Shown here: piece after piece, positions 5,392 to 26,405 of the stretch
How the letters are laid out: each line of letters opens with the position of its first letter
Position numbering within the stretch: position 1 is the first letter of the stretch
Source: Bacteroidales bacterium Bact_14
GTDB taxonomy: Bacteria; Bacteroidota; Bacteroidia; Bacteroidales; UBA932
Length of the DNA stretch: 37,166 bases
Assembly: GCA_001602865.1 (NCBI GenBank)
Contig: LUZF01000022.1
Location: 1-37,166 of the forward strand
Direction of reading: 5' to 3'
Notes under the pieces: model-generated
Databases searched by the model: none
What the model saw: the letters and a program-made list of their open reading frames with translations, nothing else
Told to the model about the DNA's origin: nothing
Made by a program: the position numbers and the translations under genes

Positions 5392-6683
5392 TCGAACGCT
5401 ATTCCCGGAAAGTGATGCGGGATGTCTGGACCGAAGAGAACAAGTTCGGCGCGTACCTGGAAGTTGAAATCCTCTCCTGCGAGGCCTGGAGCAAGCTGGG
5501 CGTCATCCCGGCGGAGGACGTCGCGAAGATCCGCGAGAACGCCCGCTTCAGCGTGGACCGCATCAAGGAGATCGAAGAGCAGACCCGCCACGACGTCGTG
5601 GCCTTCACCCGCGCCGTCAGCGAAAGCCTCGGCGAGGAGCGCAAGTGGGTCCACTACGGCCTGACCTCGACCGACGTCGTCGACACGGCGAACGGCTACC
5701 TCCTCAAGCAGGCCGACGCCATCCTCCTGAAGGATCTTGAAGAATTTCTTGAAGTACTCCGTCGCAGAGCGCTGGAATTCAAGCAGACACCTTGTATCGG
5801 CCGTACCCACGGCATCCACGCGGACATTACCTGTTTCGGCCTGAAATGGGCCCTCTGGTACGAGGAGATGAAGCGCAACATCCGCCGCTTCAAGGCCGCC
5901 GCCGCGGACGTCGAAGCCGGCAAGATGAGCGGCGCTGTCGGCAATTTTGCCAACATTCCCCCGTTCATCCAGGACTACGTCTGCGAGAAGCTCGGCATCC
6001 AGTCGGCCGACATTTCGACCCAGGTCCTCCAGCGCGACCGCCACGCCTGGTACATCGCCACGCTCGCCGTCATCGCCTCGACCCTTGAGCAGATGGCCTT
6101 CGAGGTCCGCAACCTCCAGCGGACCGAGGTGCGCGAAGTCGAGGAGGCCTTCCGCAAGGGCCAGAAAGGCTCCAGCGCGATGCCCCACAAGCGCAACCCC
6201 ATCTCCAGCGAGAACATCTGCGGCTGCGCGCGCGTGATGCGCGGCTATATGTGCGCCTCCGGCGAGAACGTCGCCCTCTGGCACGAGCGCGACATCTCCC
6301 ACTCCTCCACGGAGCGCATCATCCTCCCCGACGCGACCGAGCTGCTCGACTATATGCTCTGCCGCTTCAAGGGCATCCTCGAGAACCTCGTCGTCTATCC
6401 GGAGAATATGCTGGAGAACATCTGGCGCACGAAGGGCGTCATTTTCGCCCAGCGCGTGATGAATGCGCTGATCGGCAAGGGCCTCTCCCGCGAGGAAGCC
6501 TACGACACGGTCCAGCCGATCGCAATGAAGGCCTGGACCGGGAAACTCGACTACCAGACCCTCCTGAAAGAATCCGAGCGTGTCACAGCGCTGCTTTCCG
6601 AAGAAGAGCTGGCGAACTGCTTCACGCTCGAGTATTACTTTAAAAACGTGGATTACATCTACAACCGGGTAGGCATCCTTTAA
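5388..6683 (+). CDS. purB: Adenylosuccinate lyase
   Basis: [41 protein letters not shown] signature; ATGA overlap with purC. Confidence 0.95.
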
Positions 6684-7951
6684 TCCCGGTACACGATTTC
6701 ACTTCTGTCGGGGCCGACCGAGATGATCTTGACGGGACATCCGGTTTCGGCCTCGATGTAGTTAACATAGTCCTTGAAGGCCTGCGGGAAATCCTCATAC
6801 CTGCGGATATCGCTCAGCGGCGTCTGCCAGCCCTTGAATTCCCGGAGCACCGGCTCGATTGACTCGTCCGCGTCGTACGGGAAATAATCCAGGTCCTGGC
6901 CGTAGCGCTTGTAGCTGACGCCCACCTTGATGGTCTCGAAACCGTCCATCACGTCCGGCTTCATCATAATCAGCTCCGTCACACCGTTCATCATCACGGT
7001 CTGCTTCAGCGCGACCATATCCAGCCAGCCGCAGCGGCGGGAACGGCCGGTCGTGGCGCCGTACTCGTGGCCGATTTTGCGAAGTTCCTCCCCGGTCTCG
7101 TCGAAGAGCTCGGTCGGGAACGGGCCGTTGCCGACGCGCGTGCAGTAGGCCTTGAAGATGCCCATCACCTTACCGATGCGGTTGGGAGCCACGCCGAGGC
7201 CCGTGCAGACGCCGGAGGCCATCGTATTGGAAGACGTCACGAACGGGTAGGTGCCGAAGTCGATGTCGAGCAGCGAGCCCTGGGCGCCCTCCGCGAGGAT
7301 GGCGACGTCATTCATCATCGCGTCGTTGACATAGCGTTCGCTCTCGATGAAGGTGAATTTCTTGAGCTCCTCGATCGCGGCGAGCCAGGGGCCCTCGAGC
7401 GGCGCGAGGTCGTAGGTGAAGTCAGGGTACTGGGTCAGCATCTGGATGTGGCGCTGCTTCTTGGCCTCGTAGCGCTCCCGGAAGTCCGGCAGCAGGACGT
7501 CGCCGATGCGCAGGCCGTAGCGGCCCGTCTTGTCCATATACGCGGGGCCGATGCCCTTCAGGGTCGAGCCGATCTTGCCCTTGCCCATCGCGCTCTCGCT
7601 GGCCGCATCGAGGATGCGGTGGGTCGGGAGGATGAGGTTGGCGCGCTTGGAGATGAGGAGCTTGGACTTGACGTCCACGCCCTTCGCCTCGATCTTGTGG
7701 ACCTCGTCCATCAGGATGGCGGGGTCGACGACGACGCCGTTGCCGATGATGTTGAGGGTCTTGTCCCGGAAGATGCCCGAAGGAACGGTATGCATCACGA
7801 ACCCTTCGCCGTCGAACTGGAGCGAGTGGCCGGCGTTCGGACCGCCCTGGAAACGGGCGACCACGTCATAGGCCGGAGAGATGGAATCCACGATCTTTCC
7901 TTTTCCTTCATCGCCCCACTGGAGGCCGAGAACTACGTCAATTTTCTTCAT
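6680..7951 (-). CDS. purA: Adenylosuccinate synthetase
   Basis: [49 protein letters not shown]. Start trimmed from the longer ORF (7987) to the conserved MKKIDVV. Confidence 0.96.
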
Positions 7952-7973
7952 ACTGTATTGATAATTAATTATT

Positions 7974-9494
7974 TTATTCCCATTCAATCGTTGACGGCGG
8001 CTTCGACGAGACGTCGTAGCAGACGCGGTTCACCCCTTTCACGCGGTTGATAATCTCGTTGCTGAGGGCGCGGAGGAACGGCGTCGGAAGTTCCGCCCAG
8101 TCGGCGGTCATCGCGTCGCTGCTCGTCACGGCGCGCAGCGCGACGGCGTAGTCGTAGGTCCGCTCGTCGCCCATCACGCCGACGGTCCGGACCGGCAGCA
8201 GGATCGCCCCCGCCTGCCAGATGTCGTCGTAGAGGCCTTCGCGGCGCAGGGCGGTGATGAAGACGTCATCGACTTCCTGCAGGATCGCGACCTTCTCGCG
8301 CGTCACCTCGCCCGGAATGCGGACCGCGAGGCCCGGGCCCGGGAACGGGTGCCGGAAGACCATATGGCGGGGCATCCCGAGGCTCAGGCCCACGGCGCGC
8401 ACCTCGTCCTTGAAAAGCCATTTCAGGGGCTCGCAGAGCTGGAGTTTCATATGCTCCGGGAGTCCGCCGACGTTGTGGTGGCTCTTGATGACCTTGCCCG
8501 TGATGTTGCAGCTCTCGATGCGGTCCGGGTAGATCGTGCCCTGGGCGAGCCAGCGTGCGCCCGCCACTTTCGCCGCCTCGGCGTTGAAGACTTCGATGAA
8601 GTCGGCGCCGATGATCTTGCGCTTGCGCTCCGGCTCGCAGACGCCTTCCAGGTCCTTCAGGAAACGCCCGGAGGCGTCCACGCCGACGACGTTCAGGTCG
8701 AGCGCGCGGTAGTCCGCGAGGACGTCCGCGTACTCGTTCTTGCGCAGCAGGCCGTGGTTCACGAAAATGCAGTGGAGGTTGCTGCCGATCGCGCGGTGGA
8801 GCAGGACGGCGGCGACGGAGGAATCCACGCCTCCGCTGAGGCCGAGGATGACCTTGTCGTCTCCGAGCTGCGCGCGCAACTCCCCTACCGTCTTCTCGAC
8901 GAAGGAGTCGGCGGTCCATTCGCGGCGGCTGCCGCAGATGCCGACGACGAAATTCTCGAGGAGGAGCTTGCCCTGGAGGCTGTGGACCACTTCCGGGTGG
9001 AACTGGACGCCCCAGACGGGCGCGTCGTCCGCCTGGAAGGCGGCGTTGGCGACGGTCGGCGTCGAGGCGACGCAGCGCCAGCCCTGCGGGAGCGCCGTAA
9101 TCGTGTCGCCGTGGCTCATCCAGACCTGGGAGCCGGGCTCGAGGCCCCGCAGCAGCGGGCATTCCTTATTAATAAAGGAAAGGTTGGCGCGGCCGTATTC
9201 GCGGCTGCCGGCGCTTTCGACGCGGCCGCCGTAGGTCTGGCTCAGGAGCTGGGCGCCGTAGCAGATGCCGAGGACCGGATATTTGCCGACGATGCCGGAA
9301 AGGTCCGGGCGGAACGCGTCGGGCGCGTAGACGCTTAAGGGCGAGCCGCTCAGGATGACGCCGATGACGTCCCTGTCGTCCTGCGGGAAGCGGTTGTAAG
9401 GAAGGATTTCGCAGAAGGTGTCCAGTTCGCGCACCCGGCGTCCGATCAGCTGGGTCGTCTGTGAACCAAAATCAAGGATAATAATTTTCTGCAT
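7974..9494 (-). CDS. guaA: GMP synthase (glutamine-hydrolysing)
   Basis: [58 protein letters not shown]-terminal [11 protein letters not shown]. Start set at [10 protein letters not shown]. Confidence 0.96.
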
Positions 9495-9506
9495 TTTCGC
9501 ACACAC

Positions 9507-9537
9507 AAAAAACGATTCTCCGGGCGGCGGAGAATCG
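9507..9537 (-). terminator. Intrinsic terminator-like hairpin inside the guaA leader
   Basis: Perfect 10-bp inverted repeat CGATTCTCCG-GGCGG-CGGAGAATCG (9513-9537); on the minus strand it is followed by six T residues (plus-strand A6 at 9507-9512). Confidence 0.7.
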
Positions 9538-9552
9538 GGAGTATCCTTTGAA

Positions 9553-9583
9553 CAAAGATACTTGTTTTTCCCGATTTTCCAAA
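9553..9583 (-). promoter_or_regulatory. Bacteroidota-type promoter for guaA-purA
   Basis: Minus strand TTTG (9583-9580), 19-nt spacer, TATCTTTG (9560-9553), matching the TTTG/TAnnTTTG -33/-7 consensus. Confidence 0.65.
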
Positions 9584-9614
9584 CGTCCGGAGAAACTTTT
9601 TTTAATGATGCCTT

Positions 9615-12137
9615 CTAGCGCATCGACACGGCACTGATCGTTTCCGGCCAGTAGATGGCGTTCGCGGTCAGTTTCGCGGTACCGTACCAGACGGCACGGA
9701 AGTTAGGATCGATCGTGAAGCTGATCACGCGTCCGCTGCCCAGCGCGGTCAGGACCGCGACCGGAGTGCCGGCCAGCATTTCCTGCAGGCGCGGCAGCAT
9801 ATTGCCGGACAGGAGGACCTTGGCCGGGTGCACCACCGGGGTGCGCAGCTTGTTCTGGATCGGCTCCAGCATAATCGCATTGTTCTTGAAGACGGGCAGC
9901 GCGTCATTCCTGTAGCCCCAGCAGAGCGGATGGGTGATGTCGATCTTCGAATCGAGGATGACGCCCGGGATGCTCTGGGCACGCGCCGCAGTCGCGATGT
10001 TGTCGTAGGCGATGTCCGTCGGGAAGGCCTGGGACTTCGTCTTGAGGGGCTCGAGGCCGAGCTTGCGGAGGAACTGGTGGCCCTGTTCCGTGGTCACCAG
10101 CGTGCCGCCGCGCTCCACCCAGGACTTGATCTTCGCAACCGCCGCGGCGCTCAGCGCGTTGTGGGCGGCCGTCACGAAGAGGACGTTGTAGCGGTCGAGG
10201 TCCAGCGAGGCGAGGCTCTCGGACGGGAGGATGCTGAGCGGAATCCGGTAGTGCTGGTCCATCAGGTGCCAGAGGCCGCCGACGGGCACGGAGGAAGCCT
10301 CGGTGCTGCCGATGACGGCGACGCGCGGCAGGCGGGCCGTGGCGAAATTGGCGCTGCCGATGTTGTGGCCGCTCGTAAAGCCGCTGGAAAGGGCGTATAC
10401 GTCGACCCAGTCCTCCTTGGCAATGGTGGCCATCAGTTCGTGGATGCGCGCCTCAGGAACGCTCTGGTAGAGCTCGCCGAGGGGCACGACGACCGTGCCG
10501 CGGCTGAAAACCTTGCCGTCGGCGGAGAACTTGCCCTGGGCGACCTTGGCGAAGACGCCGGCGGAGAGAAGCCTGTAGAGGGCGCGCGGGGCGTAGAAGC
10601 CGGTCCATTCGAACGCGTAGGCGTACGAGGCGCGGCTGTACTTCCCTGCCGGCACGTCCTGCTCGTCGAACTTGTCGCCGAGCGTAGCCGCCGGAGCCTT
10701 GGCGTAGGCCAGGTTGAAGGCCATCGGCATCGTCCAGCCGGTAATGTCGTAGGAAAGGCTGTCCGCGTAGGTTTCGCGGATCTCGAAGAGGGCTTCCACC
10801 ATCCGGTGGTTGGCCTGGCGCACGGGAACGACGTAGGCGGAATCCGGGACGAAAGTCTTGCCGCCGACGGTCAGCTTCTTGCCGAGCTTGTAGATCTGGA
10901 CGTCGTTGCGGGCGACGGTCTGGGCCAGTTTGTAGGTGGCCGCGGCATCGTCCGAAGAGCCGAAGACATAGAATCCGGAGCCCTCGCAGGAGGTCTGGCG
11001 GAAGTAGTTCTTCTGGTAGGCCAGCAGCTCTTCACGCATATCCAGGCCGCCCAGCAGGGTCGCCAGTTCGGTCGTCAGCTGGTTGTGGATGGACTGCGGG
11101 AAGGAAAGGACGCCGTTCACGGTGTTGCGCAGGAAACCGCGGGAGCTCTGTTCCTCCCAGAGGAGGGCGATGCCGCCGTAGAAGTCCATATACTCACGGC
11201 CGCGGCCCGGATAATAGTCGTCATACACTTCGCCCGAGAAGTACATCAGGCCCTGCCTGTCGAACGCGGGGGCATAATAATCCTTCGCGAGGCGCCGGAT
11301 GAAGGCCTGGCACTCGTCCGGGATGAGGGGATGGACGCGCGTCGGCTCACCCGGCGAGAAGTGGTAGTTGGCGTCCGAGCCCTGCTCGTGGGCGCAGGTG
11401 TAGATGTTCGGCTTCCAGGCGAGCATCTCGACGGCGCGGGAACTGGACTCCGGCTGGGTCTGGTTGATCCAGTCGCGGTTCAGGTCGAACCAGTAGTGGT
11501 TGGAACGGTTGCCGGGCCAGCCCTCGAGGTGCTCCAGTTCCTGGTCGTCCAGGTTCGGGGTCGCGCCGCGGTGGGAATTCACCCACTCGGCGAAGCGGCC
11601 GATGCCGTCCGGGTTGATCATCGGGTCGATAATGACGATGGTGTTCTGGAGGACTTTCTGGACGTAGGGCGTCTGTGCGGCGGCCAGGTAGTAAGCCAGC
11701 AGGAGCGAAGCGTTGAAACCGCTCGTCTCGTTGCCGTGGATGCTGTTGCCGAACCAGTTCACCAGCGGGCCGCTCGTGGAACCGTCCGCGTCGGGATCGG
11801 CCAGCTTGGCGTGCTCGGCCTTGATGGTCTCCAGGTTGCGGATGTTCTCCGGGGTGGAGATGAAGACGACGTAGAGCGGGCGGCGTTCGTGGGTCCAGCC
11901 ATACTGCTTCACGGCGACGCGGTCGGAAGCCGCGGCGAGGGCCTTGATGTAGCTCACGCCCTGCTCCGGCGTGGTCTGGAACTCGCCGATCTCGAAGCCG
12001 AGGACTTCGGCGGGCGTCGGAACCGCCTTGTTGAAGCTGCAGGTATCCGGCAGGAAGAAGGAAAGCGGAACCGCTTCCTGGGCGTGGAGGGAACCCAGCA
12101 GGCAGAAGCCTGCGAGGAGGGTCATCAGTTTTTTCAT
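9615..12137 (-). CDS. Secreted M14-family zinc carboxypeptidase
   Basis: Signal peptide MKKLMTLLAGFCLLGSLHAQ; NSIHGNETSG (HxxE zinc ligands), IIDPMINPDGIGRF, WFDLNRDW, TCAHEQG, ALLWEEQSSRG; GATase-like C-terminal region. Confidence 0.88.
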   Translation of the reverse strand: MKKLMTLLAGFCLLGSLHAQEAVPLSFFLPDTCSFNKAVPTPAEVLGFEIGEFQTTPEQGVSYIKALAAASDRVAVKQYGWTHERRPLYVVFISTPENIRNLETIKAEHAKLADPDADGSTSGPLVNWFGNSIHGNETSGFNASLLLAYYLAAAQTPYVQKVLQNTIVIIDPMINPDGIGRFAEWVNSHRGATPNLDDQELEHLEGWPGNRSNHYWFDLNRDWINQTQPESSSRAVEMLAWKPNIYTCAHEQGSDANYHFSPGEPTRVHPLIPDECQAFIRRLAKDYYAPAFDRQGLMYFSGEVYDDYYPGRGREYMDFYGGIALLWEEQSSRGFLRNTVNGVLSFPQSIHNQLTTELATLLGGLDMREELLAYQKNYFRQTSCEGSGFYVFGSSDDAAATYKLAQTVARNDVQIYKLGKKLTVGGKTFVPDSAYVVPVRQANHRMVEALFEIRETYADSLSYDITGWTMPMAFNLAYAKAPAATLGDKFDEQDVPAGKYSRASYAYAFEWTGFYAPRALYRLLSAGVFAKVAQGKFSADGKVFSRGTVVVPLGELYQSVPEARIHELMATIAKEDWVDVYALSSGFTSGHNIGSANFATARLPRVAVIGSTEASSVPVGGLWHLMDQHYRIPLSILPSESLASLDLDRYNVLFVTAAHNALSAAAVAKIKSWVERGGTLVTTEQGHQFLRKLGLEPLKTKSQAFPTDIAYDNIATAARAQSIPGVILDSKIDITHPLCWGYRNDALPVFKNNAIMLEPIQNKLRTPVVHPAKVLLSGNMLPRLQEMLAGTPVAVLTALGSGRVISFTIDPNFRAVWYGTAKLTANAIYWPETISAVSMR

Positions 12138-23125: not shown

Positions 23126-24814
23126 ATGCTGATAGTCCTAAAGCTCCTGGGTTCCATCGCCCTCCTGATCTACGGTATGAAGGTGATGAGCGAGGCCCTC
23201 CAGAAAATGGCGGGTCCCCAGCTGCGCCACCTCCTCGGCGCGATGACCACCAACCGCTTCACCGGCGTGGCGACCGGCGCCCTCGTGACCGTCGCCGTCC
23301 AGTCCTCCGCCGCGACAACCGTGATGACGGTGTCCTTCGTGAACGCCGCCCTCCTGACGCTCCGGCAGGCCATTTCCGTCATTATGGGCGCGAACATCGG
23401 TACCACGATGAGCGCCTGGATCATGTCGGCGGGCTTCTCCTTCAACATCACCAACGTGGTCTGGCCGGCCTTCCTCGTCGGCATCCTCCTGATCCAGCTG
23501 CGGAAGCACCGGTACGTGGGCGATTTCCTCTTCGGTCTCTCCTTCCTGCTCTTCGCGCTCGGAATGCTGAAGCAGACCGGCACGGAGCTGGACCTTGCGG
23601 GCAACCCGGCCGTCGTGGCCTTCTTCGCGAGCTTCAAGACCAATTACGGGACCATCCTCCTGTTCCTGCTCATCGGAACGATCCTGACGGCCCTGGTCCA
23701 GAGTTCCGCGGCCCTGATGGCCATCACGATGGTCCTCTGCTCGACCGGCGCCATCACGATCTACCAGGGTATCGCGCTGGTCATGGGTGAAAACATCGGT
23801 ACGACCGTGACCGCCAACCTCGCGGCCCTCAGTGCCAACACCCAGGCCCGCCGGACCGCCCTTGCGCACCTCCTGTTCAACGTCTTCGGCGTCATCTGGG
23901 TGCTCATCGCCTTCTTCCCCTTCGTGCGCTTCGTCTGCGGCCTCGTCGGGATGGACCCGACGGCGGAGACCCAGACCCCGACGCAGCTGTCCTTCACCCT
24001 TGCGACCTTCCACACCTGCTTCAACCTCATCAACACGGCAGTGCTGATCTGGTTCATCCCGCAGATCGAGAAGATCGTCTGCGCCTTCATCAAGCCCAGG
24101 ACGGCGGACGAAGAAGACGAATTCCGCCTCCGCTATATCCGCGGCGGTATTATGAAGACCCCGGAACTCTCCGTCTTCCAGGCCCAGAAGGAGATCGTCA
24201 CCTTCGGCGAACGGATGCAGAAGATGTTCGACCTCGTGAAGGAGCTCTACCACGCCACGGAAGAGGAGGAATTCCAGCAGCTCTTTGAGCGCATCGAGAA
24301 ATACGAGGACCTCAGCGACCGCATCGAGGACGGCATCGCCCGCTACCTCGGCCAGGTCGGAGACGCCCACCTGTCCGACGACACCAAGGAGAAGATCCGT
24401 GCGATGCTCCGGATGATCGGCGAGCTGGAATCCGTCGGCGACAGCTTCTACAACCTCGCCCGCATCCTTCGCCGCCGCCGCGACAAGAACATCGAGTTCA
24501 CGCCGGCCCAGATCAAGTACGGCACGGAAATGACCCGCCTGATGGAAGACGCCATCGTCCATATGAACACGGCCCTCTCCGGCCGCAAGGAGGATTTCCA
24601 CCTCTCCGAGTCCATCTCCATCGAGCGCCGTATCAACGAGTTGCGTAACGAGATGCGCCAGCGCAACGTCTCCGCCGTCGACAACCACGAATACAGCTAC
24701 GAAGCCGGCACGGTCTTTATGGACATGATCAACGAGTGCGAGAAGACGGGCGACTACATCATCAACGTCCTCGAAGCCCGCCTCGGCGTCGACCACAACC
24801 TCCAGCCCATCTAG
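23126..24814 (+). CDS. Na/Pi cotransporter family protein with PhoU-like C-terminal region
   Basis: Two repeats QSSAATTVMTVSFVNA and QSSAALMAITMVLCSTGA (QSSA motifs), GANIGTT / GENIGTT, helical C-terminus. Confidence 0.92.
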   Translation: MLIVLKLLGSIALLIYGMKVMSEALQKMAGPQLRHLLGAMTTNRFTGVATGALVTVAVQSSAATTVMTVSFVNAALLTLRQAISVIMGANIGTTMSAWIMSAGFSFNITNVVWPAFLVGILLIQLRKHRYVGDFLFGLSFLLFALGMLKQTGTELDLAGNPAVVAFFASFKTNYGTILLFLLIGTILTALVQSSAALMAITMVLCSTGAITIYQGIALVMGENIGTTVTANLAALSANTQARRTALAHLLFNVFGVIWVLIAFFPFVRFVCGLVGMDPTAETQTPTQLSFTLATFHTCFNLINTAVLIWFIPQIEKIVCAFIKPRTADEEDEFRLRYIRGGIMKTPELSVFQAQKEIVTFGERMQKMFDLVKELYHATEEEEFQQLFERIEKYEDLSDRIEDGIARYLGQVGDAHLSDDTKEKIRAMLRMIGELESVGDSFYNLARILRRRRDKNIEFTPAQIKYGTEMTRLMEDAIVHMNTALSGRKEDFHLSESISIERRINELRNEMRQRNVSAVDNHEYSYEAGTVFMDMINECEKTGDYIINVLEARLGVDHNLQPI

Positions 24815-24831: not shown

Positions 24832-24896
24832 GGAAGAAGGACTATTTTTCAGATTTTCCATTTTTCTGGAAATATCTGGAAAATAGTCCTTCTTCC
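24832..24896. repeat. Long near-perfect inverted repeat between convergent genes
   Basis: GGAAGAAGGACTATTTT (24832-24848) is the exact reverse complement of AAAATAGTCCTTCTTCC (24880-24896). Inner arms continue pairing with one G-T wobble and one bulge down to a 6-nt loop, about 29 bp in total. Confidence 0.9.
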
Positions 24897-24910: not shown

Positions 24911-26218
24911 CTAAGTGTTCTGGAGGGCGCCGGCGAGGAACTGATCGTAGGCGCTCATATCCATCAGGCCGTGGCCGGAGAGGTTGAAGAGAATCACCTT
25001 CTCTTCGCCTGTTTCCTTGCACTTCAGGGCCTCATTGACAGTTGCGGCAATGGCATGGCAGGACTCCGGAGCCGGGATGATGCCTTCGGACTGGGCGAAG
25101 AGCACGCCGGCGGAGAAGGAATCCTGCTGGGCGATGTCGACCGCCTCCATCAGGCCGTCCTTCAGGAGCTGCGAGACGATCGTACCGGCGCCGTGGTAAC
25201 GGAGGCCGCCGGCGTGGATCAGCGCGGGCTTGAAGTCGTGGCCGAGGGAGTACATCGGGAGGAGCGGGGTATAACCGGCCTCGTCGCCGAAGTCGTACAT
25301 AAACTTACCCTGGGTCAGCTTCGGGCAGGATTTCGGCTCCGCGGCGATGTAGCGGGTCTGCTTGCCCTCGAGGAGGGTGTGGCGCATAAACGGATACGCG
25401 ATGCCGCTGAAGTTGGAACCGCCGCCGAAGCAGGCGATGATGATGTCCGGGTACTCCCCTGCCATCGCCATCTGCTTCTCGGCCTCGAGGCCGATGACTG
25501 TCTGGTGGAGCGAGACGTGGCTGAGGACGGAGCCGAGGGTGTACTTGCAGTTCGGGGTCATCTGGGCCAGTTCGACCGCTTCGGAGATCGCGGTGCCGAG
25601 GGAGCCCTGGTGGTTCGGATCACGCGTGAGGATGTCCTTGCCGGCGCGGGTCGACATCGACGGCGAAGGGGTCACCTGGGAGCCGAAGACCTGCATCACG
25701 CTGCGGCGGTAAGGCTTCTGCTCATAGCTGATCTTGACCTGGTAGACGGCGGATTCGATGCCGAACACCTTCGCGGCATAGGCCAGCGCGGCACCCCACT
25801 GACCGGCGCCGGTCTCGGTTGTTAAGTTCGTAACTCCCTGCTGCTTCGCATAATAGGCCTGCGGAAGCGCGGAGTTGATTTTGTGGGAACCGAGGGGGTT
25901 GACGCTCTCATTCTTGAAATAGATGTGGGCGGGCGTCCCGAGGGCTTCCTCCAGGCCGTAGGCGCGCACGAGCGGCGTGCTGCGGTAATAGGCGTACTTC
26001 TCCCGGACGGCTTCCGGGATGTCGATCCAGGCGTCAGTCTGGTTCAGTTCCTGCCGCGCACACTCCTCGCAGAAGATCGGGAAAAGGTCTTCCGCCTTCA
26101 GGGGCTGCTTTGTCGCCGGATGGATCGGGGGCATGGGCTTGTTCTTCATGTCCGCCTGGATGTTGTACCATTGCTTCGGAATCTCGGTTTCCGGGAGAAT
26201 AAAACGCTTCTGTTTCAT
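24911..26218 (-). CDS. trpB2: TrpB2-type tryptophan synthase beta chain-like PLP enzyme
   Basis: RSTPLVRAYGLEEALGTPAHIYFKNESVNPLGSHKINSAL (PLP Lys), TTETGAGQWG, ACFGGGSNFSG; N-terminal extension typical of TrpB2. Confidence 0.92.
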   Translation of the reverse strand: MKQKRFILPETEIPKQWYNIQADMKNKPMPPIHPATKQPLKAEDLFPIFCEECARQELNQTDAWIDIPEAVREKYAYYRSTPLVRAYGLEEALGTPAHIYFKNESVNPLGSHKINSALPQAYYAKQQGVTNLTTETGAGQWGAALAYAAKVFGIESAVYQVKISYEQKPYRRSVMQVFGSQVTPSPSMSTRAGKDILTRDPNHQGSLGTAISEAVELAQMTPNCKYTLGSVLSHVSLHQTVIGLEAEKQMAMAGEYPDIIIACFGGGSNFSGIAYPFMRHTLLEGKQTRYIAAEPKSCPKLTQGKFMYDFGDEAGYTPLLPMYSLGHDFKPALIHAGGLRYHGAGTIVSQLLKDGLMEAVDIAQQDSFSAGVLFAQSEGIIPAPESCHAIAATVNEALKCKETGEEKVILFNLSGHGLMDMSAYDQFLAGALQNT

Positions 26219-26240
26219 TGTTGTAAGGTTTTATGGGGAA

Positions 26241-26270
26241 AATAAAAAAGGCCGTCCTTCCAGGGCGGTC
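26241..26270 (-). terminator. Terminator-like hairpin in the trpB2 leader (attenuator)
   Basis: Minus-strand CCGCCC-UGGAA-GGACGG stem (5 GC pairs, one C-A mismatch), then CC and UUUUUUAUU. Confidence 0.6.
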
Positions 26271-26317
26271 TCGCTACTATATCTTCGCCGGATTATACCC
26301 GGCACATACTTGCACGC

Positions 26318-26389
26318 TTAGTTCCGCCCGGAAATATCTTTCGGACGCCACCAGCTGAAAACAGCCGCTATGGAACTCTTTGCGATCAT
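26318..26389 (-). CDS. Putative Trp leader peptide MIAKSSIAAVFSWWRPKDISGRN
   Basis: Minus-strand ORF of 23 codons between the trpB2 promoter and terminator-like hairpin, with tandem TGG TGG codons (26353-26348) in an otherwise non-coding leader. Confidence 0.75.
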   Translation of the reverse strand: MIAKSSIAAVFSWWRPKDISGRN

Positions 26390-26397
26390 CACTTCTG

Positions 26398-26405
26398 CAA
26401 AACTA
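26398..26405 (-). promoter_or_regulatory. Candidate -7 promoter element for trpB2 leader
   Basis: Minus strand TAGTTTTG matches TAnnTTTG, with a TTG about 19-20 nt upstream. It lies only 8 nt before the leader ATG. Confidence 0.45.

Follow-up and report, generated by a model that had tools for sequence, protein, structure and literature searches.

The window analysed here is a stretch of 37,166 nucleotides from Bacteroidales bacterium Bact_14 (contig LUZF01000022.1), and all coordinates refer to it. Its minus strand carries a stand-alone trpB2 gene, which encodes a TrpB-like tryptophan synthase beta subunit and is preceded by a leader region at 26405-26239. A very strong hairpin ends the gene and separates it from a convergent, membrane-transporter-like gene at 23126-24814. 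Because of this terminal hairpin (-39.6 kcal/mol) and the convergent neighbour, trpB2 appears to be monocistronic, alone in its transcription unit. The features of the locus, in the order of transcription, are as follows.

26398-26405, minus strand: -7 box of the Bacteroidetes type, TAGTTTTG, with a TTG 20 nt upstream of it (from sequence).
26318-26389, minus strand: leader ORF MIAKSSIAAVFSWWRPKDISGRN, 23 codons followed by a stop, its ATG 8 nt past the -7 box (from sequence).
26348-26353, minus strand: sensor codons, tandem TGG (Trp13-Trp14), from the conservation of WW in trpB2 upstream regions.
26341-26346, minus strand: region 1, GUCCGA, partner of region 2 in the 1:2 hairpin (from covariation).
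26324-26333, minus strand: region 2, UUCCGGGCGG, codons 19-22, 5' arm of the antiterminator (from folding and covariation).
26287-26303, minus strand: spacer hairpin GCCGG/CCGGC (from folding; present in the sister species).
26258-26268, minus strand: region 3, CCGCCCUGGAA, which serves the antiterminator as its 3' arm and the terminator as its 5' arm (from pairing and covariation).
26239-26272, minus strand: intrinsic terminator, whose stem of 10 positions (26272-26248) contains two A-C mismatches and is followed by UUUUUUAUUUU (from folding and covariation).
24911-26218, minus strand: trpB2, start at 26218 (from profile scores).
24832-24896, minus strand: 3' hairpin ending trpB2 (-39.6 kcal/mol, z -8.2).

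The product of the gene scored 584.9 bits against TIGR01415, reaching the TrpB2 criterion (cut-off 518.85), and 689.3 bits against PRK12391 (cut-off 366). Its score against the TrpB1 model TIGR00263 was 144.8 bits, below the cut-off of 392.45. Among solved structures, the nearest chains are beta chains of tryptophan synthase, and the SHK lysine and the TTETGAGQ motif are kept in the predicted protein. Judged by its sequence, the gene product is a clear member of the TrpB2 family.

An earlier note had read the upstream region as a tryptophan attenuator, and its elements all lie where it placed them. The -7 box TAGTTTTG is present at 26405-26398, the leader ORF at 26389-26318 has its tandem Trp codons 13 and 14 at 26353-26348, and the spacer hairpin GCCGG/CCGGC occupies 26303-26287. 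The antiterminator arms CCGGGCGG (26331-26324) and CCGCCCUGG (26268-26260) are also positioned as described, but the pairing between them is longer than had been proposed and joins UUCCGGGCGG with CCGCCC-U-GGAA. Similarly, a stem and a U-run (at about 26249-26239) do precede trpB2, but the stem contains two A-C mismatches instead of the one originally counted. The spacer hairpin is retained with an altered loop in the sister species described below, and it is no general feature among the other leaders.

Taken alone, the window is unremarkable. The minimum free energy of the leader has a z-score of about -1.8 relative to shuffles, which is within chance, and the pairing of the antiterminator arms was equalled in 31% or 12% of shuffles in two separate tests on the window only. 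A scan of the window for a consensus terminator returned no match, and its terminator folds at about -7 kcal/mol, compared with -11 to -25 kcal/mol for most relatives. Single-sequence folding was not significant and was dropped as evidence. The window's own sequence statistics do not exceed chance; the comparison of relatives lies far beyond it.

We searched 150 relatives and found TrpB-type homologues in 119 of them, using a loose threshold that also catches TrpB1. Leaders were counted in 88 trpB2 upstream regions as ATG ORFs of 10-30 codons that contain Trp-Trp and end 60-200 nt before the gene. Such WW-containing ORFs were present in 53 of the 88 regions, compared with 0-1 per round in 20 dinucleotide shuffles and 0 on the reverse strand. 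The WW ORFs in genomes G015 and G089 overlap upstream coding sequence and were discarded. Leaders also occur in other genera of the order and in named rumen, gut and Paludibacter assemblies. They are absent from Mediterranea massiliensis, Paraprevotella clara and Hoylesella, and the distribution is therefore patchy; within the genus, 24 of 68 trpB2 genes have no such leader. Some of the leaderless genes lie in other settings. Genome G043 (C11 and C44) holds two trpB2 copies, and L058, the copy whose upstream region is complete, lacks a leader. In five genomes (G065, G058, G080, G008 and G015; L005-L009) a leaderless trpB2 directly follows a PLP aldolase gene, which resembles low-specificity threonine aldolase with a weak family score. 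The first four of these genomes, unlike G015, carry trpA alongside the leaderless gene.

The leaders also share a promoter-like element. Among same-genus leaders, TTTG ends 4-10 nt ahead of the leader ATG in 40 of 44 cases, against 6% in shuffles. The distance from the -7 box to the leader AUG is 5-9 nt in most leaders, and in the window the ATG and box together span 26389-26405. Provided that the box acts as a -7 element, we infer that transcripts would begin a few nucleotides before the AUG, so that these leader mRNAs would be almost leaderless themselves.

To follow the pairing across relatives, we aligned the 13 leaders closest to the window (alignment A2) and compared them with 500 shuffles and with slid controls. 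Of the cells, 89% are paired in the antiterminator (2:3), which has three double-changed pairs, and 91% in the 1:2 hairpin and the terminator (3:4) taken together, which have seven. None of the 500 shuffles matched the covariation score in either case. The 1:2 hairpin by itself (columns 17-22 with 36-41) is paired in 88% of cells and has double changes at 3 pairs, and the paired share drops to 16-51% in the slid controls. A second subgroup of leaders (alignment A3) has different arms, and there the partners of region 2 are the terminator's loop and 3' arm. The antiterminator of this subgroup is 98% paired with little variation, and its terminator (92% paired, eight double-changed pairs) gives the subgroup's strongest signal. 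The window differs at one position in all four arms, with U replaced by C in region 1, A by G in region 2, U by C in region 3, and A or G by G in region 4. This coordinated change preserves pairing in all three alternative helices at that position. Comparison thus reveals three conserved and mutually exclusive helices: 1:2, the 2:3 antiterminator and the 3:4 terminator. The earlier note had proposed that Trp codons and pairing should be conserved in related leaders, and both are: tandem Trp codons recur in 53 of the 88 upstream regions, and the antiterminator, 1:2 and terminator helices covary.

A covariance model of these 13 leaders (R1) was then used to search 400 genomes of the genus, 61 of which had matches at E up to 1e-4. 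Genomes outside the model contributed 45 loci; 43 of these precede trpB2, and 42 of the 43 have a WW ORF in the expected place. Another (L284) stands at the head of an operon that encodes a PaaK-like ligase, an ACT protein, TrpB2 and a thioesterase. The sole unexplained new locus, L289, has no WW ORF and was treated as a false match. The closest new locus, L271, comes from a sister species whose TrpB2 is 97% identical to that of the window and whose leader ORF reads MMAKSSRVAVFSWWRPKDISGRN. Its DNA is identical to the window over a stretch that begins ahead of the Trp codons and runs beyond the stop codon; spacer bases have changed, and the weak terminator stem and U-run are retained. Sequencing or assembly error was ruled out as the source of the weak terminator, because the sister species has identical A-C mismatches, which are therefore a trait of the lineage.

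At L290 (about 6140-9758, G449:C46), the operon headed by a Trp leader, MKSSVRYFFWWLLSIPLDSAFHLA, encodes a PaaK-like phenylacetate-CoA ligase, an ACT-domain-like protein, TrpB2 and a PaaI-like thioesterase. This gene order suggests that Trp may jointly control how indole and aryl or indole acids are salvaged. Trp attenuators are not general on paaK genes: no WW leader was found upstream of the 30 paaK loci read.

The position of the ribosome is predicted to set the choice between these helices. Full-length equilibrium folds were dominated by strong terminators, and we supplemented them by folding the transcripts of 52 leaders just short of the complete terminator, with the ribosome footprint masked. 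Stalling the ribosome at the Trp codons gave a median of 14.6 predicted leader-terminator pairs; the median was 3.9 when it stood at the stop codon, and shuffled leaders gave 9.5. Pairing in silico was stronger for the stalled ribosome in all 52 leaders (52/52), including the window (11.9 pairs stalled, 2.2 at the stop), in agreement with the stall-versus-stop logic that the earlier note had drawn from the window itself. When ribosome masks were applied to full-length equilibrium folds, many relatives retained the terminator even when stalled, and the switch would therefore have to be kinetic. Fold choice is kinetic in known attenuators.

A further explanation would be chance, with two TGG codons falling by accident in a short ORF ahead of an ordinary hairpin. 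The window's own folding statistics would be compatible with such an accident, but it is scarcely credible in view of the WW ORF counts, the covariation, the stall-versus-stop folding and the loci in new genomes, which together show conservation in dozens of species. When no ribosome is present, the median relative forms 4.1 leader-terminator pairs, as expected if the 1:2 hairpin shields region 2, and the window forms 11.5. Termination in the window lineage therefore seems to require that the leader be translated. The attenuation reading is supported overall, but the terminator of the window is weaker than the earlier note assumed, and in the window, unlike in the median relative, termination on an untranslated leader is not predicted to be enforced by a 1:2 hairpin.

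Such features could also mark an inherited, partly decayed attenuator, in which the leader is still translated but the mismatched terminator is leaky and trpB2 is expressed almost constitutively. The two A-C mismatches, the low stability of the stem relative to those of most relatives and the missing 1:2 protection in the absence of a ribosome all fit this explanation. However, the sister species keeps the stem, the U-run and the DNA of the Trp codons and region 2 while the spacer has drifted, which looks like continued selection, and the coordinated four-arm change maintains pairing. We consider decay an unlikely account of the window.

The metabolic setting of these leaders points to tryptophan supply. 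Only 12 of 91 same-genus genomes have trpA and trpC (IGPS), the same 12 for both genes, and the distribution of trpE agrees in the same-genus genomes searched. The window's own assembly (G000) has neither trpA nor trpC, though at 66% completeness its missing trp genes are weak evidence. Among same-genus trpB2 genes, 41 of 44 with a leader and 16 of 24 without one are in genomes that lack trpA (Fisher p 0.012, with kinship ignored). The source bacterium, one of the Bacteroidales of gut or rumen, apparently cannot synthesise tryptophan de novo. TrpB2 enzymes are reported to use O-phosphoserine (Busch 2014, as cited in PMC11917138), and TrpB2 homologues are described as having a high affinity for indole (cited in PMC11917138) and as taking part in indole salvage in Thermococcus (Hiyama 2014, as cited in PMC11085991). 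Since most leader-bearing relatives are without trpA and trpC, we infer that TrpB2 probably salvages indole into tryptophan. The earlier note's placement of the enzyme in Trp metabolism, with indole salvage as an example, accordingly finds good support in same-genus leader-bearing genomes, most of which are without trpA, trpC and, where searched, trpE.

Attenuation could nevertheless be real while TrpB2 mainly performs another Trp-linked reaction or acts as a second synthase beside a trp operon. Leader, trpB2 and trpA do occur together in eight genomes (G001, G012, G088, G092, G097, G121, G127 and G133), and TrpB2 activity in these bacteria is only predicted. We consider such a role improbable given the 41 of 44 leader-bearing genes in trpA-less genomes, several of which are more than 95% complete, and the indole affinity and Thermococcus salvage attributed to TrpB2 homologues in the two citing papers. 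A separate search of same-genus genomes with a tryptophanase model returned two groups of scores (about 1e-150 and about 1e-93), which may represent tryptophanase and tyrosine phenol-lyase. A match to this model is present in some of the leader-bearing genomes.

Taken together, we think it very likely that the window contains a ribosome-mediated, classical trp-type transcription attenuator on a solo trpB2 gene whose product would salvage indole. In this model, transcription would start a few nucleotides ahead of the leader AUG. A shortage of charged tRNA-Trp would stall the ribosome at Trp13/14, where it would cover region 1 and leave region 2 free to pair with region 3 as the antiterminator, and RNA polymerase would read into trpB2. 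When tRNA-Trp is charged, the ribosome would reach the stop codon and cover region 2, allowing the 3:4 terminator to form. From salvaged indole and either serine or phosphoserine, TrpB2 would then form tryptophan by condensation, a role proposed because most such genomes lack the remaining trp pathway.

The attenuator of the E. coli trp operon has tandem Trp codons, alternative 1:2, 2:3 and 3:4 helices, and stall-versus-stop logic. The window leader appears to share all three properties. It differs from the E. coli system in that it would control one gene instead of a pathway, its region 2 lies inside the last leader codons, its AUG is probably almost at the start of the transcript, and it has no Rfam match. 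A scan of the window found no Rfam leader family at threshold, and Bacteroid-trp (RF01692), described by Rfam as a Bacteroidete tryptophan peptide leader, was absent even at E up to 10. At the gathering threshold, RF01692 matched none of 40 trpB2 loci, most of which have leaders; the best of the trpB2 leaders below threshold, L144, reached 40.4 bits (gathering 49). Bacteroid-trp resembles the trpB2 leaders in its occurrence in Bacteroidetes and in its tandem Trp codons and terminator directly before Trp genes. In contrast, its arm sequences differ, and those of its matches whose downstream gene was read precede a trpB1-headed operon, not a solo trpB2. R1 gives weak matches to several Bacteroid-trp sites ahead of trpB1, and the two groups are probably related. 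R1 also found two leaders with WWW in other Bacteroidales (L231 in G094 and L236 in G103), which lie with their terminators immediately ahead of trpE and fall below the RF01692 threshold. The Bacteroid-trp motif is listed in PMC2864571, the main text of which gives no detail on it. According to PMC2965389 (2010), leader peptides were then not known outside Proteobacteria and Actinobacteria, with one reported in Firmicutes. A search of the open-access literature (for PMC2864571, its main text) found no published Trp attenuation of a trpB2 gene. The mechanism looks classical; what seems novel is the gene under control and the group of sequences.

We propose, tentatively and as something short of an even chance, that in Bacteroidales without a trp operon the solo-trpB2 attenuator forms the core of a dedicated Trp-salvage control, with the ribosome starting almost at the 5' end of the transcript. 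If so, bacterial TrpB2 would be a physiological, Trp-regulated enzyme of indole salvage, and the attenuator that also governs a PaaK-type ligase and a thioesterase in one species would hint at salvage of indole acids. Leader-peptide attenuation in Bacteroidetes would extend past Rfam's Bacteroid-trp, which missed every trpB2 leader scanned. Stand-alone TrpB2 has no settled role in bacteria, and an attenuator present in dozens of species, the majority of which are missing the remaining trp pathway, ties the enzyme to tryptophan supply. The idea of indole salvage thereby becomes directly testable in gut and rumen Bacteroidales.
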